Origin: Atopobiaceae bacterium
GTDB lineage: Bacteria; Actinomycetota; Coriobacteriia; Coriobacteriales; Atopobiaceae
DNA: 64,000 nt
NCBI GenBank assembly: GCA_030525685.1
Contig: JAUNEG010000005.1
Location: 1-64,000, forward strand
Direction of reading: 5' to 3'
Under the pieces are notes generated by a model that had not been told where the DNA came from, searched no databases, and saw only the letters and a program-made list of their open reading frames with translations. Of this stretch, positions 233-63,876 are shown one piece after another; the stretch's first letter is position 1, and every line of letters starts with the position of its first letter. The position numbers and the translations under genes were made by a program.

Positions 233-311
233 CGAGAAGAACGACGTGCCGAGGTTCTTCTCGCCGCGCGCGCAGGAAAACGCGACCCGTCCCCGCCCTT
301 CTCGCCATGCG

Positions 312-420
312 CGTTAAGAATCCCGGCGCGTCCCCCTTGAAACGATACTTCAGAGGGGGACGCGCCGGGATTTCTAACCCGGACACGCTTCCACACGGGG
401 ACGCAAGCGGATTCCTAACC
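312..420. repeat. REP-like repeat cluster, three copies (GGTTA ... GTCCCC family)
   Basis: Three copies of a 24-bp unit sit in the gap between the convergent PFL and murB genes. The unit is a GTTA head, about eight variable bases, then CCGGCGCGTCCCC or GCTTGCGTCCCC. Copies are at 312-335 (plus), 356-379 (minus) and 397-420 (minus). The first two form a strong hairpin that could terminate both flanking genes. The two same-direction copies start 41 bp apart. Three more copies lie at 49686-49794. Confidence 0.75.
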
Positions 421-2184: not shown

Positions 2185-3909
2185 GTGACGCCGTCGACGG
2201 ACACGCTCGTGCGGCTCTCGCACGTGAGCCTCTTCTACGGGGGGGGCGTCACCGCGCTCGATGACGTCTCCCTCGAGCTGCGCCGCGGCGAGCGGATCTG
2301 CGTGCTCGGGGCGAACGGTTCCGGCAAGTCCACGCTCGCCTCGGTGATCTGCGGGCTGCTCGCCCCCGACGAGGGCGAGGTCGAGCTCGTGGGCGAGCGC
2401 GTGTCCGCGGACGGCCGGCCCGACCTCGAGGCGTACCGTCGCGCGCGGCGCTCGCTCGGGCTGGTCTTCCAGAACCCGGACGACCAGATCGTCACGAGCG
2501 TCGTGGAGGACGACGTCGCCTTCGGGCCGGAGAACCTCGGCCTACCTCGTGGGGAAATCGCCGCGCGCGTGGCCCGCGAACTGCACCGCGTTGCCATGGA
2601 GGACTACGCGCAGGCGGACCCGTCCCGTCTCTCGGGGGGCCAGCGGCAGCGCGTGTGCATCGCCGGCGCGCTGGCGATGGAGCCGGCCGTGCTCGTGCTG
2701 GACGAGCCGGGGTCGCTGCTCGACGTGCGCGGGCGCTCGGCGATCGTGCGCGTCATGGGACGGCTCGCCGCGGCGGGCACCGCGCTGGCCCACGTGACCC
2801 ACTTCATGGAGGAGGCCCTCGAGGCCGACCGCATGATCGTCCTCGACCACGGGCGCGTGGCGCTGGAGGGCACCCCGGAGGAGGTCTTCTCGCACGGAGA
2901 GAAGCTCGTCGAGCTCGGCCTTGAGGTCCCGTTCGCGGCGCGGCTCTCGCAGCGGCTCGGCCTCCCCTGGACCTGCGACGAGCCCACCCTCGTCTGTGAA
3001 TCGGGGACAGTCCCCAATTCACAGAAAGGTTTTATGCCATCGCGCCCCCGCGTCAAAAAAGCGTGCGAATCGGGGACTGTCCCCGATTTACAGGTCGAGC
3101 ACGCGAGCTTCTCGTACCGGCTGGGCTCGCGCGCGCTCGGCGATGTGTCGCTCGAGGTCGTCCCCGGCACCTCGACGGCAATCGTCGGCCAGACGGGCTC
3201 CGGAAAGTCCACGCTGCTGCGGCTGATCTGCGGCCTCGAGGTCCCCGACGAGGGACGCGTCCTGGTACGCGGCAATGACACCTCGACGAGGCGCGGGCGC
3301 CGGGGGGCGCGCCGACTCGTCGGCTATGTCATGCAGCACCCGGAGCGCCAGCTCTTCGCCGAGACGGTCGAGAAGGACGTGGCGTTCGGACCGCGCAACC
3401 TCGGGCTTCCCGCGGATGAGGTGGACCGCCGCGTGACGAGGGCGCTCGAGCTCGTGGGGCTGGCCGCCCGGCGTGGGGCGTCCCCGTTCAAGCTCTCCGG
3501 GGGGCAGCGCCGGCTCTGCGCGCTCGCCGGCATACTCGCCATGGAGCCGCGCATCCTCGTGCTCGACGAGCCGACCGCCGGCCTTGACCCCCGCGGCCGT
3601 GCGATGCTGAGAAGCGTGCTCGCCCGCCTGCGCGGGGTCGGCGTCACCCTCGTGCAGGTCACGCACAGCATGGAGGACGCCGCGCGGGCGGACCGCGTCA
3701 TGGTGCTCGACCAGGGGCGCGTCGTCGTCGACGGCACGCCGACGGAGGTCTTCTCTGCCGGGAACGAACGGCGCCTCACCGAGATCGGACTCGGCATACC
3801 GCGCGCGCTGCGCGTCGCCCGCACGCTCGAGCGGGATGGCTGGCCCTCTCTGGGCGACCCCCTCACCACCGACGAGCTCGTCGCCGCGATCCGAGGGGGC
3901 GAGTCCTGA
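2185..3909 (+). CDS. ecfA: Fused ECF transporter ATPase, EcfA1-EcfA2 type, two ABC domains
   Basis: This 574-residue protein joins the two energizing ATPases of an ECF transporter in one chain. Domain 1 has Walker A GANGSGKST near residues 42-50, signature LSGGQRQR and VLVLDEPGSLLD. Domain 2 has GQTGSGKST near 335, LSGGQRRLCAL and VLVLDEPTAGLD. H-loops (VTHFMEE, VTHSMED) are present. Separate EcfA and EcfA' genes are the commoner arrangement. The linker (about residues 270-303) is encoded by two copies of a GGGGAC/GTCCCC palindromic repeat, giving two CESGTVP peptides. The start is GTG at 2185. It follows ribU by 21 bp and overlaps ecfT by one base. It probably powers RibU and other S components. 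Confidence 0.92.
   Translation: MTPSTDTLVRLSHVSLFYGGGVTALDDVSLELRRGERICVLGANGSGKSTLASVICGLLAPDEGEVELVGERVSADGRPDLEAYRRARRSLGLVFQNPDDQIVTSVVEDDVAFGPENLGLPRGEIAARVARELHRVAMEDYAQADPSRLSGGQRQRVCIAGALAMEPAVLVLDEPGSLLDVRGRSAIVRVMGRLAAAGTALAHVTHFMEEALEADRMIVLDHGRVALEGTPEEVFSHGEKLVELGLEVPFAARLSQRLGLPWTCDEPTLVCESGTVPNSQKGFMPSRPRVKKACESGTVPDLQVEHASFSYRLGSRALGDVSLEVVPGTSTAIVGQTGSGKSTLLRLICGLEVPDEGRVLVRGNDTSTRRGRRGARRLVGYVMQHPERQLFAETVEKDVAFGPRNLGLPADEVDRRVTRALELVGLAARRGASPFKLSGGQRRLCALAGILAMEPRILVLDEPTAGLDPRGRAMLRSVLARLRGVGVTLVQVTHSMEDAARADRVMVLDQGRVVVDGTPTEVFSAGNERRLTEIGLGIPRALRVARTLERDGWPSLGDPLTTDELVAAIRGGES
2994..3092. repeat. Pair of GGGGAC/GTCCCC palindromic repeats inside the EcfA linker
   Basis: Two palindromes lie inside the open reading frame: 2994-3024 (CTGTGAAT, GGGGACAGTCCCC, ATTCACAG) and 3064-3092 (AATCGGGGACTGTCCCCGATT plus flanks). 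A third copy with matching flanks is intergenic at 20544-20572. They are in frame and cause no stop, so they look like repeat insertions tolerated in an inter-domain linker. Confidence 0.85.
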
Positions 3910-12686: not shown

Positions 12687-12856
12687 GGATGCTCCTATCT
12701 CGCGGGCCGGCAATCGCCGGCCTCCTTTCACGCCACACACAAGTTTAGTCTCGCGCCGGCGGAAGCGGAACGCATTTCTCGACTTTTGACACTGGCTGGG
12801 GTTACCGCCGCAGGCCGGGTCGCATCGGCGGAGCTCACCACTTTGGTGCTGCGGCC

Positions 12857-13129
12857 GTCCCGGAAACAGCGATGTTCTCCGCCTTGGCGAAAGGGGCGTC
12901 CGAGAATTGGCGACCTTCTCCGCCTGGCAGGTCTTCTCGTCCCGAAAAGAGGGAGGTTCTCCGCCTAGGTGGCCCCCGACGCGGAGAAGGTCGCCGTTTC
13001 CGGGACGTGCGCACCACGCAGCCGGAGAAGGTCGCCATTTCCGGGACGAGAAGGACGCACGCTCGGGGAACATCGCCGATTCCGGGACAGCCGTGGATCT
13101 CGAGCGGAGAAACCCCTCGTTTTGCGGAC
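12857..13129. repeat. Seven-unit 41-bp-pitch repeat array, copy 1
   Basis: Seven 26-bp units, each close to GCGGAGAAGGTCGCC followed by ATTTCCGGGAC, fill the region upstream of malic enzyme. Minus-oriented units start at 12857, 12898 and 12939; plus-oriented units start at 12981, 13022, 13063 and 13104. Same-direction units are exactly 41 bp apart and the halves face each other across a 16-bp centre. Units are imperfect dyads (CGGAGAA and TTTCCGG). 12687-12856 contains the malic enzyme leader and nothing else I can identify. A second array with identical layout is at 44987-45259. Confidence 0.9.
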
Positions 13130-13166
13130 CCGTCCAGGCCCATCCAAGCCCGCCCGACCCGCGCCC

Positions 13167-13430
13167 CTACGCCAGCGCGATGCCGCCCAGCCAGCCCCAG
13201 CGCGGCTCGCACGCCGCGCAGAGGTCCTCCCCCATGGCCGGCGTGACCAGCGCGCACTCCACCAGCCGTCGCTGCAGCGTCCCGGCGCCGAGAAGCGTCT
13301 GCGGCTCGTGCCCCGCCGGAACCGGGCGCCAGGCCGGCTGCCCGAAGGTCGTGGTCGCGCCGTCGGCGGCGAGAAGCCCGCGCGCCCGCAGCGCCGCCAG
13401 CACCCGCGACCGCATGCCCTTCTCGCCCAT
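13167..13430 (-). CDS. Small protein of unknown function, 87 residues
   Basis: I do not recognise this protein. The frame is supported by almost exclusive G/C at third codon positions, by an ATG at 13430 preceded by GGAGGG, and by its place in an otherwise non-coding gap. The sequence has an arginine-rich N-terminus, a central RPVPAGHEPQTLLGAGTLQR and a C-terminal LCAACEPRWGWLGG with a CxxC pair that might bind metal. There is no signal peptide or membrane segment. It is divergent from galE, and the repeat array lies just downstream. Confidence 0.55.
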   Translation of the reverse strand: MGEKGMRSRVLAALRARGLLAADGATTTFGQPAWRPVPAGHEPQTLLGAGTLQRRLVECALVTPAMGEDLCAACEPRWGWLGGIALA

Positions 13431-19542: not shown

Positions 19543-20541
19543 ATGTACGAGAACCTGAGCGAGCCCATGTCGCTGAAGAAGGAGATCAAGCTCTACTCCG
19601 GCACCGGCAACCCCGCCCTTGCGGAGAAGGTCGCCGACATCCTCCACCTCGAGCTGCAGGGCCTCAAGATCGAGAAGTTCGCCAACGGCGAGATCTACGC
19701 CCGCTTCGACGAGTCCGTCCGCGGCGACGACGTCTTCTTCATCCAGTCCCTCTCCGGCGCCAACGTGAACGACCTGCTGATGGAGACACTCGTGGTCGCC
19801 GACGCCGCCAAGCGCGCCTCCGCCTCCAAGTTCACCGCGGTCATCCCGCACTACTGCTACGCCCGTCAGGACCGCAAGGCGTCCTCGCGCGAGCCGATCA
19901 CCGCGCGTCTCGTGGCGAACCTCCTCGAGGCCGCCGGCGTCAACCAGGTCATCACCGTCGACCTGCACCAGGGCCAGATCCAGGGCTTCTTCGACATCCC
20001 CGTGACGCACCTCACCGCCCTCTACCTCATCGGCGACTACTTCAAGGCCAAGGACCTCGACTGGGAGAACACCGTCGTGGTCTCCCCCGACATGGGTCGC
20101 GCGAAGGTCGCCAAGCGTCTCTCCGACTACCTGGGCTGCGAGGTCGCCATCGCCCACAAGAGCCGTCCCAAACACAACGCGTCCGAGGTCATGGGCATCA
20201 TCGGCGACATCAAGGGCAGGACCTGCATCGTCAACGACGACATGATCGACACTGCCGGCACGCTCTGCGGCTCGGTGCGCAAGCTCAAGGAGATGGGCGC
20301 CGGCGACATCTACGTCTCCGCCACCCACGGCATCTTCTCCGGCGCCGCCATCGAGCGCCTGCAGGACGCCCCGCTCGTCGAGTGCGTGGTCACCGACATC
20401 ATCCCCTGCGAGGCCGCTGACAAGCCGGGCTCCAAGATCAAGACCGTCTCGGTCGCCAACGAGCTGGCCGAGGCCATCAACAGCGTCTACATGCGCAAGT
20501 CCGTCTCCGAGATCTTCGGCGGAACCGGCGCCGAGATCTAG
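19543..20541 (+). CDS. prs: Ribose-phosphate pyrophosphokinase (PRPP synthase)
   Basis: Prs makes PRPP from ribose-5-phosphate and ATP for nucleotide, His, Trp and NAD synthesis. The 332-residue protein shows NGEIYARFDESVRGDDVFFI, the ATP-site YARQDRKASSREPITA, divalent-cation motif VDLHQGQIQGFFDIP, and the PRPP-binding loop NDDMIDTAGTL. The glmU-prs arrangement is conserved in Gram-positive bacteria. It starts directly after the glmU stop codon. Confidence 0.97.
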   Translation: MYENLSEPMSLKKEIKLYSGTGNPALAEKVADILHLELQGLKIEKFANGEIYARFDESVRGDDVFFIQSLSGANVNDLLMETLVVADAAKRASASKFTAVIPHYCYARQDRKASSREPITARLVANLLEAAGVNQVITVDLHQGQIQGFFDIPVTHLTALYLIGDYFKAKDLDWENTVVVSPDMGRAKVAKRLSDYLGCEVAIAHKSRPKHNASEVMGIIGDIKGRTCIVNDDMIDTAGTLCGSVRKLKEMGAGDIYVSATHGIFSGAAIERLQDAPLVECVVTDIIPCEAADKPGSKIKTVSVANELAEAINSVYMRKSVSEIFGGTGAEI

Positions 20542-20543
20542 TC

Positions 20544-20572
20544 CGTAAATTGGGGACAGTCCCCAATTTACA
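20544..20572. repeat. GGGGAC/GTCCCC palindromic repeat, intergenic copy
   Basis: The palindrome GTAAATTGGGGAC with GTCCCCAATTTAC lies three bases after the prs stop. Its downstream flank (CAGAAATGTTTGATG) resembles that of the copy inside ecfA (CAGAAAGGTTTTATG), so the mobile unit is longer than the palindrome. It may serve as a prs terminator. Confidence 0.8.
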
Positions 20573-20698
20573 GAAATGTTTGATGTGGCGCGGGGCCGTC
20601 TTCGGGCGACCCCGCTTTTCTCGGCAGCTGAGCCCGTTCGGCCCGCGCGCCGTGGTAGTGTACGTAACCGATGCACGCAGGCCGCAGAGAGGACCACC

Positions 20699-32376: not shown

Positions 32377-32555
32377 GGTGGTTCCTTTCCCTTTGTGGTA
32401 ATCCCCTTCCGCGCGACGCAACCGGAGGGGACCCATTCCCCTCCCCCTTGCAACCTAATGCGAGAAAGTTACGCGCACGTGGGCAGAATACCCCGGGACG
32501 AGAAGAACCGCGAGCTGATACCATCGTGGGAAACACCGCCGTAACGGGTGGGCGT

Positions 32556-44879: not shown

Positions 44880-44986
44880 GTCGGGCCCCCAGGTGGTTTC
44901 GGCAAAAAGACCCACCTATTGTCGCACATCTGGGCCGGGTGCTCAGAAACTCGACAGTCCTGGAGTCCTGCGTGCGCCCGGACGAC

Positions 44987-45259
44987 GTCCCGGAATCGCC
45001 GGGCTTCTCGCTTAGCGAGAAGAGCGCGTCCCGAAATCGCCGGCCTTCTCCGCCTGATGGGATTTCTCGTCCCAGAAAACGGGAGGTTCTCCGTTCAAAC
45101 AGCACCTGTCGCGGGGAACTCCGCCAATTCTGGGACGGGAAGGGCGCTTGGCCGGAGAACCCCGCCAATTCCTAGAAGCCCTTCCCGCCCGGGCGGAGAA
45201 GGATGCCGTTTTCAGGACGCCGCTTGCGCCCAACCGGGGAATCTCCCACTTTTTAGGAC
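44987..45259. repeat. Seven-unit 41-bp-pitch repeat array, copy 2
   Basis: The layout is the same as at 12857-13129. Minus-oriented units start at 44987, 45028 and 45069; plus-oriented units start at 45111, 45152, 45193 and 45234. All same-direction steps are 41 bp and the centre step is 42 bp, as in copy 1. Units vary around GCGGAGAA then GCC and TTCCGGGAC. Spacers are also related between the copies (for example CTGATGGGATTTCTC against CTGGCAGGTCTTCTC). It lies between rpsI and glmM. Confidence 0.9.
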
Positions 45260-45280
45260 GGCTCTCCCGCACACAGAGAA

Positions 45281-49685: not shown

Positions 49686-49794
49686 GGTTAGCTTTACCGG
49701 CGCGTCCCCGTCTGGCGCGTGACTTGGGTTAGATCTACCGGCGCGTCCCCCTCCTGATCGCCGAATTGAGGGGGACGCGCCGGTGGTTTTAACC
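49686..49794. repeat. REP-like repeat cluster (GGTTA ... GTCCCC family), three copies
   Basis: Copies lie at 49686-49709 and 49727-49750 (plus, 41 bp apart) and 49771-49794 (minus). Each reads GGTTA, eight variable bases, then CCGGCGCGTCCCC. The last two form a hairpin. The cluster lies between convergent fruK and patatin genes. It is the same family as at 312-420, with mirror-image organisation. Confidence 0.8.
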
Positions 49795-63504: not shown

Positions 63505-63876
63505 TGGTGGAGGTGCGGAGAATCGAACTCCGGTCCAAAGCGAACCCCTGACAGGTGTCTCCAGGCTCAGTGGCCAATTGGGTCTCGGACGCCGCGCACC
63601 TGGTCACCCGCGCTTGGCGTCCCAGCCGGTTCGGTCTTTGCGCGCGGCATACCGGCCACGTCCGCGCGCGCATCTCCCTAGAATGACGCCGCCCCGGGAA
63701 CGGGAGCGATCCCCGGTTTGACGCGCTGGTTAGTTAAGACTAAGCAGCGAGAGCCAGCTGAGGCTCGAAAGAGTTGTTCTCGTCAATTCAATTTGACGGT
63801 ACCCCTGTTTAACGTGGCGAGGAGACCACGACCTGCTGCCCATCTCAGGCCCACCCTGTCGAAACCAGTCACCCCC
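63505..63876 (-). ncRNA. ssrA: tmRNA
   Basis: tmRNA rescues stalled ribosomes and tags their products. On the minus strand the 5' end reads GGGGGTGACTGGTTTCGACA (63876 downwards), matching the tRNA-like start, and the 3' end has GTTCGATTCTCCGCACCTCC then ACCA. The acceptor arms CACCTCC and GGGGGTG pair. The tag reading frame encodes DENNSFEPQLALAA and stop, ending in the expected LAA degradation signal. The resume codon is probably GAC. A TTGACA lies about 38 bp upstream (63914-63919), but no good -10 is visible; 63877-64000 holds only this leader. Confidence 0.95.

Follow-up and report, generated by a model that had tools for sequence, protein, structure and literature searches.

Intergenic repeat arrays of several sequence families share a 41-bp pitch in Thermophilibacter

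Introduction

Repeats dispersed between genes are commonly accounted for by their sequence: a palindrome and its transposase. In the BIME-2/REP clusters of enterobacteria, short repeats gather between genes and beside gene ends, in opposed orientations and at regular spacing. BIME-2 elements bind DNA gyrase in E. coli (PMC6379681, PMC2817692), and the gyrase motif displays a 10-bp phased variation in G/C (PMC6379681). Another family, the CGTC-tagged REPs, carries a CGTC tag followed by a stem of 8-9 bp and a loop of 4-5 nt. These elements occur mostly singly or as dimers, with negligible head-to-tail pairs and rare clusters, and the hosts given for them include no Actinobacteria (Di Nocera 2013, PMC3733652). 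In Pseudomonas fluorescens SBW25, REPINs and tandem REP arrays show preferred neighbour distances of 71, 110 and 184 bp (PMC3116915).

The arrays described here come from the genome of a gut actinobacterium of the genus Thermophilibacter (G000; 1.93 Mb in 49 contigs). There are dozens of them, short and intergenic, and they belong to several different sequence families. Each of the systems above resembles them in part; a search of the Thermophilibacter literature and of the REP papers found no description of such arrays. Their common property is a distance: nearly all units of one direction start 41 bp apart.

Arrays in the window and in the genome

The window is the whole stretch of DNA that was analysed, 64,000 nucleotides long (contig C29:1-64000). 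Two of its arrays belong to family I, which has a 24-nt unit of the form GGTTAGnAA...CGTCCCC. In the first, a plus-strand unit, CGTTAAGAATCCCGGCGCGTCCCC (312..335), is inverted relative to two minus-strand units, GGTTAGAAATCCCGGCGCGTCCCC (356..379) and GGTTAGGAATCCGCTTGCGTCCCC (397..420); the former faces it at 44 bp, start to start, and the latter lies 41 bp from the former. A degenerate plus-strand unit, CGCAGGAAAACGCGACCCGTCCCC (271..294), which is in phase and keeps 11 of 15 conserved positions, lies 41 bp upstream of the 312 unit and brings this cluster to four units. In the second array, plus-strand units GGTTAGCTTTACCGGCGCGTCCCC (49686..49709) and GGTTAGATCTACCGGCGCGTCCCC (49727..49750) are again 41 bp apart, and the minus-strand unit GGTTAAAACCACCGGCGCGTCCCC (49771..49794) faces them at 44 bp. 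The first-pass annotation had noted an exact 41-bp pitch in both clusters and a third, inverted copy in each, and both observations hold. Its unit sequence, GGTTA...GTCCCC, does not describe the unit at 397, which differs in its core and ends in CGCTTGCGTCCCC instead of CCGGCGCGTCCCC. The exact family I pattern matched four times in the window and not once in 100 shuffles.

The other two arrays, which the annotation called seven-unit arrays, belong to family II, with a 28-nt unit, CGTCCCGGAATCGGCGACCTTCTCCGCC. Both have the layout + + + - - - -, a pitch of 41 bp and a facing distance of 42 bp. One occupies 12856..13130, with units starting at 12856, 12897, 12938, 12980, 13021, 13062 and 13103, and the other 44986..45260, with units starting at 44986, 45027, 45068, 45110, 45151, 45192 and 45233. 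The window also contains a tmRNA (63505-63876), a Corio-PBP RNA (32405-32478) and an FMN riboswitch (1432-1576), as expected for a coriobacterium.

Genome-wide, family I has 17 exact matches, against 0 in the control, and 65 at up to three mismatches, against 0 for the reversed pattern; family II has 33 matches, against 0 in its control. Family III (CGTCCCGTGTACCGGTT) was met in the sister genome, Thermophilibacter gallinarum DSM 107455 (G040), at a site whose counterpart in G000 carries a family I array, and was then searched for across the genus. Units are bipartite: GGTTAGGAA and CGTCCCGGAAT are examples of the outer box, CGTCCCC and TTCTCCGCC of the inner one. The layout is nearly always + + - -, with outer boxes pointing outward and inner boxes toward the centre; family II arrays mostly have 4-8 units, with head-to-tail steps dominant. 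By a simple ORF and GC3 method of gene calling, all arrays are intergenic except three that this crude ORF finder called otherwise. Most lie beside gene 3' ends, divergent flanks are rare, and several are located at contig edges, among them those on C8, C9 and C39, whose C-runs and spacings of 42 or 46 bp may stem from assembly errors.

A common pitch of 41 bp

Same-direction distances were counted in G000 and G040, with orthologous arrays counted once in each genome. The spacing histogram that the first-pass annotation proposed is sharp for family I, with 63 of 68 distances at 41 bp, two at 42 and one each at 36, 39 and 55. Family II gives 125 of 141 at 41 bp, 11 at 31 and one each at 36, 39, 40, 42 and 45, while the nine distances in family III comprise four of 41 bp, two of 42, two of 31 and one of 58. 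The identical pitch that the annotation saw in different families thus extends to all three. The main exception, 31 bp in families II and III, is one helical turn shorter. Such steps occur in family II at about seven loci, all adjoining the array centre, and may share ancestry from a few events. Facing distances are likewise narrow in family I (44 bp in 39 of 40 cases, 49 in one). In family II they are mainly 42 bp (26/36), with 21 bp in two related arrays that lie next to each other (62 in counts that omit the overlapping unit). Family III faces at 28 or 38 bp; its middle units are placed at 28+41 or 38+31, and the outer distance is constant at 69 bp (70 in one orthologous pair).

The same value emerges when the distance is left free. 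In open-gap searches, which allowed distances of 21-51 and 26-56 bp, 30 of 32 family II pairs fell at 41 bp and two at 31, and 30 of 33 GGTTA-box pairs in 31 genomes of the genus fell at 41. The other three were one poly-A register shift and two matches next to C-runs at contig edges. When repeated 9-mers were counted on 380 kb of array-enriched sequence, with no family presupposed, there were 568 pairs at distance 41 and a second peak at 82, against a background of 0-19 pairs at neighbouring distances not divisible by 3; the peak at 41 drops to 4 pairs once families I-III are masked. As a control, a lax-pattern scan matched many unrelated genomes with mixed pitches, 41 occurring only once. 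Matches in Aquibacillus saliphilus proved to be near-perfect 42-bp tandem repeats (GTCCCGGAATGCGC...) near the ends of three contigs (L184, L224, L261) and are unrelated.

In viral contigs the GGTTA pair pattern shows broad spacing, and given these spacings there is no sign of a phage source for the arrays. The window alone showed just four clusters, and a coincidence among few copies was the outcome to be expected if spacing elsewhere had been broad. That outcome was not found: with nearly 200 same-direction steps of 41 bp in families I-III of the two genomes, and with the open-gap searches, the 9-mer spectrum and the viral contigs in agreement, coincidence can be regarded as refuted.

Linker constraint and array turnover

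The sister genome allows shared arrays to be compared site by site, their flanks being about 92-98% identical. In the 12 orthologous pairs without unit gain or loss, 75 of 641 linker positions have changed, as have 106 of 1271 positions in the flanks. Only 2 indels were counted over 2239 positions of the arrays, compared with 10 over the 1271 of the flanks (Fisher p=0.001), a conservative contrast since the flanks include some coding sequence. Linkers are therefore substituted as fast as flanks, and their length is almost never altered. Those of family II have no conserved sequence.

Elsewhere, arrays differ by whole units. Orthologous arrays differ in length by exactly one 41-bp unit at several sites (L045/L137, L079/L130, L092/L111, L099/L117). 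G040 has an array at C1:122564 and, 2.4 kb away at C1:124969, a near-identical copy in which the linkers too are reproduced; at this second site G000 holds only a short collapsed remnant. The slot at 49686 in the window is occupied by family I in G000 and, at the orthologous intergenic site (C2:500952), by family II in G040. Two further differences were observed between these genomes. G000 lacks a 6.5-kb segment that lies between two arrays in G040 and has a single array connecting the flanks (L281 vs L280); this may reflect an array-mediated deletion or an insertion in the sister. The site of the only RAYT gene of G000 holds a family II array in T. gallinarum (L291 3478-4393 vs L290 4139-4418).

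One-unit differences and whole-array duplication are in keeping with a pitch that is a by-product of copying. A founder dimer of 41-bp pitch would have been multiplied through slippage, unequal exchange and gene conversion, the families would be its diverged descendants, and no protein would measure the distance. The greater likeness of family I units within arrays (identity 0.69-0.74) than between them (0.54) also fits, as do the outer boxes that the families of related species have in common. Family II does not: its core identity is 0.66-0.69 within arrays and 0.65 between them, so that units are about equally divergent in both comparisons and the pitch, still intact, is not left over from recent duplication. 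Copying likewise leaves unexplained why linkers are stable in length yet free in sequence and why family III has neither outer box of the others, and it does not predict 31 bp as the chief alternative or the constant 69 bp of family III. As the source of the pitch, copying is unlikely.

Relatives in the genus

Among 31 genomes of the genus, the exact family II pair pattern was found only in G000 and G040. A GGTTARRAA pair search also matched three other Thermophilibacter species (G001, G017 and G042), each time with a pitch of 41 bp. Their arrays are intergenic and combine a GNTTAGGAA outer box with inner boxes of their own: TTGGAGGG in G001, where there are seven plus and seven clear minus units, TCGTTGC in G017 and CATCTTTGG in G042. 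The outer box and the pitch are retained across these relatives and the inner box is replaced. The annotation had called the sequences of the families unrelated. This is right only in part: families I and II have the two-box layout and a GGAAT stretch in common, and relatives keep the outer GNTTAGGAA box when the inner one changes.

Since relatives were searched with exact box patterns, the families and species counted here are to be taken as a minimum. A scan for 41-lag identity over 198 kb of other species detected no 41-bp array, and the same scan recovered just one of the window's four; its 42-bp matches were coding coiled-coil repeats. One further genome, G023, has a single family I array inside a 2.9-kb stretch that is 92% identical to G040 (L388 vs L280), which suggests transfer together with the flanking genes.

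Other intergenic elements were seen in the same surroundings. The slot to the left of murB, which holds a family I array in G000, holds other elements in relatives (L325-L351), such as inverted pairs of GATTAACACGCAGAATCCGG in G006 and G020 and, in many species, AT-rich loops enclosed by inverted repeats like AAACCTCACAGGTAGT. A short motif, GGCGAGAAGRRC / GYYCTTCTCGCC, recurs intergenically in many Thermophilibacter species, often as inverted pairs, and is also present in the murB slots of relatives. It occurs in array linkers and flanks, in the window at 232-270, 298, 2173, 11310, 13368-13428, 37066, 49659 and 49818, and in the middle of both arrays of G017; within genes, GEK codons add to its count.

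Symmetry and RNA folding

The + + - - symmetry and the usual location beside gene 3' ends raise the possibility that the arrays act as RNA, as bidirectional terminators or as 3'-end stabilisers, through nested pairing between the opposed arms. RNA of whole arrays, from either strand, folds far more stably than shuffled sequence (z -3.7 to -9.1), the 12856 array shows nested pairing in register, and a GTTCTTCTCGCC/GGCGAGAAGAAC hairpin is central in both G017 arrays. Mirror units are slightly more alike in family I (p 0.0045); family II, however, has no mirror preference (p 0.41). Unpaired linkers within a stem would need no exact length, steps of 10 nt would be unexpected, and asymmetric arms, with 31 bp in one arm, are tolerated. 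No Rfam match was found over the arrays. A role of this kind is quite unlikely to be the explanation.

Comparison with REP, BIME and CRISPR systems

The units had also been described as REP-like, with a RAYT transposase gene to be looked for in the genome. Like REPs, they are extragenic and multicopy (65 family I and 33 family II matches in G000), whole-array copying is seen, and their outward tags (GGTTA or CGTC) resemble head-to-head REP dimers. Other defining features that were tested are absent. Units are not palindromic beyond shuffles, the mean differences in unit MFE being +1.3 and +0.4 kcal/mol for family I and -0.3 and -0.1 kcal/mol for family II. The only Y1_Tnp gene of G000, at C6:111601, is flanked by TGAGACAAAGGGGACAGGTTCA hairpins and not by these units, and G040 has one short match (a 128-aa open frame). 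At 30 RAYT loci of the genus there was no clear family I or II unit, and none above background; about 13 of these loci carry GGGGACAG hairpins at their ends, and at others no terminal hairpin was recognised. CGTC-tagged REPs too are without a dedicated transposase (PMC3733652), but in those elements head-to-tail dimers are negligible, whereas here the head-to-tail 41-bp pitch dominates. Non-autonomous mobile elements of the REP/REPIN type, moved by a RAYT transposase, are thus an improbable account of the arrays, and membership among REPs, REPINs or BIMEs fails although position and abundance are alike. A separate hairpin family of the CTGTGAATCGGGGACAGTCCCCAATTCACAG type (window 2989-3105 and 20538-20585) resembles the repeats found around RAYT genes of the genus and is probably the true RAYT-associated REP family of this genome.

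By sequence, the class nearest to families II and III is that of the CGTC-tagged REPs, though these do not form head-to-tail arrays. Both have the CGTC start, a predominance of outward tags set head to head, no dedicated transposase and a position 3' of genes. The stem is missing here, as family II folds no better than shuffles and family III gives 3 bp, and it is the head-to-tail pitch that rules instead of predominant head-to-head dimers. BIMEs are alike in their intergenic clusters beside gene ends, opposed orientations and regular spacing; they alternate in orientation, however, whereas the present arrays consist of two opposed head-to-tail blocks (+..+ -..-) of non-palindromic units, with one pitch common to several sequence families. 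The SBW25 arrays are also highly ordered tandem arrays with preferred distances, but there the distances are family-specific and the flanking DNA is repeated too, while in the present arrays a single distance holds across several families, with unconserved linkers. CRISPR arrays offer a fourth likeness, with repeats of 28 or 24 nt and unique linkers of constant length. They keep one orientation and acquire spacers whole; here the orientation inverts at the centre, linkers measure 13-17 bp, units are degenerate and orthologous linkers drift by substitution.

Phased sites as a possible explanation

Distances shift mainly by about whole helical turns (41/31, 42/21, 28/38), and linkers keep their length as their sequence drifts, from which we infer that the double helix is read on one face. 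The arrays would then be phased DNA sites at gene ends, read by a DNA-binding, bridging or wrapping complex of the host, a reading to which roughly even chances can be given. At intervals of four (or three) helical turns the putative complex would sit on one face of the DNA, and it could act at gene ends, for instance as an insulator of topology or transcription. With two opposed arms it might bridge or wrap some 110-340 bp. Array number and content would change as 41-bp units are gained or lost, as whole arrays are copied or gene conversion takes place, as palindromes collapse and as arrays recombine with one another. Slippage and gene conversion could spread and homogenise the arrays, and the shared pitch would not be explained by copying alone. 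The annotation had proposed that a common host protein or copying mechanism sets the pitch. A putative protein is the best reading of the helical-turn steps and the fixed linker length; copying accounts for the whole 41-bp steps that do occur and leaves family II unexplained.

DNA gyrase may be considered one candidate reader, since its sites in E. coli include BIME-2 elements and its motif has 10-bp phased G/C variation. Within the family II cycle, AT content is strongest at the 10.25-bp harmonic, which was counted as a lead toward gyrase; in family I this harmonic is not dominant. Against phased reading stands the exactness of the pitch, hardly ever 40 or 42, since helical phasing by itself does not normally demand so narrow a spacing. 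The very stable RNA hairpins of whole arrays also speak against it, as does the possibility that the 31-bp steps of family II go back to few events.

Implications

What is conserved in these arrays is a distance, while linkers and even inner motifs change across the families of one genus. This would make the cause of the spacing in REP-like arrays directly testable, and it could bring to light an architectural site of a new type at the gene ends of Actinomycetota. If geometry is indeed read, the sequence of the sites could turn over while the pitch stays fixed. A broader possibility, rather doubtful at present, is a genus-wide system that organises or insulates the chromosome, in which one host complex would read the geometry of several unrelated, species-specific site families.
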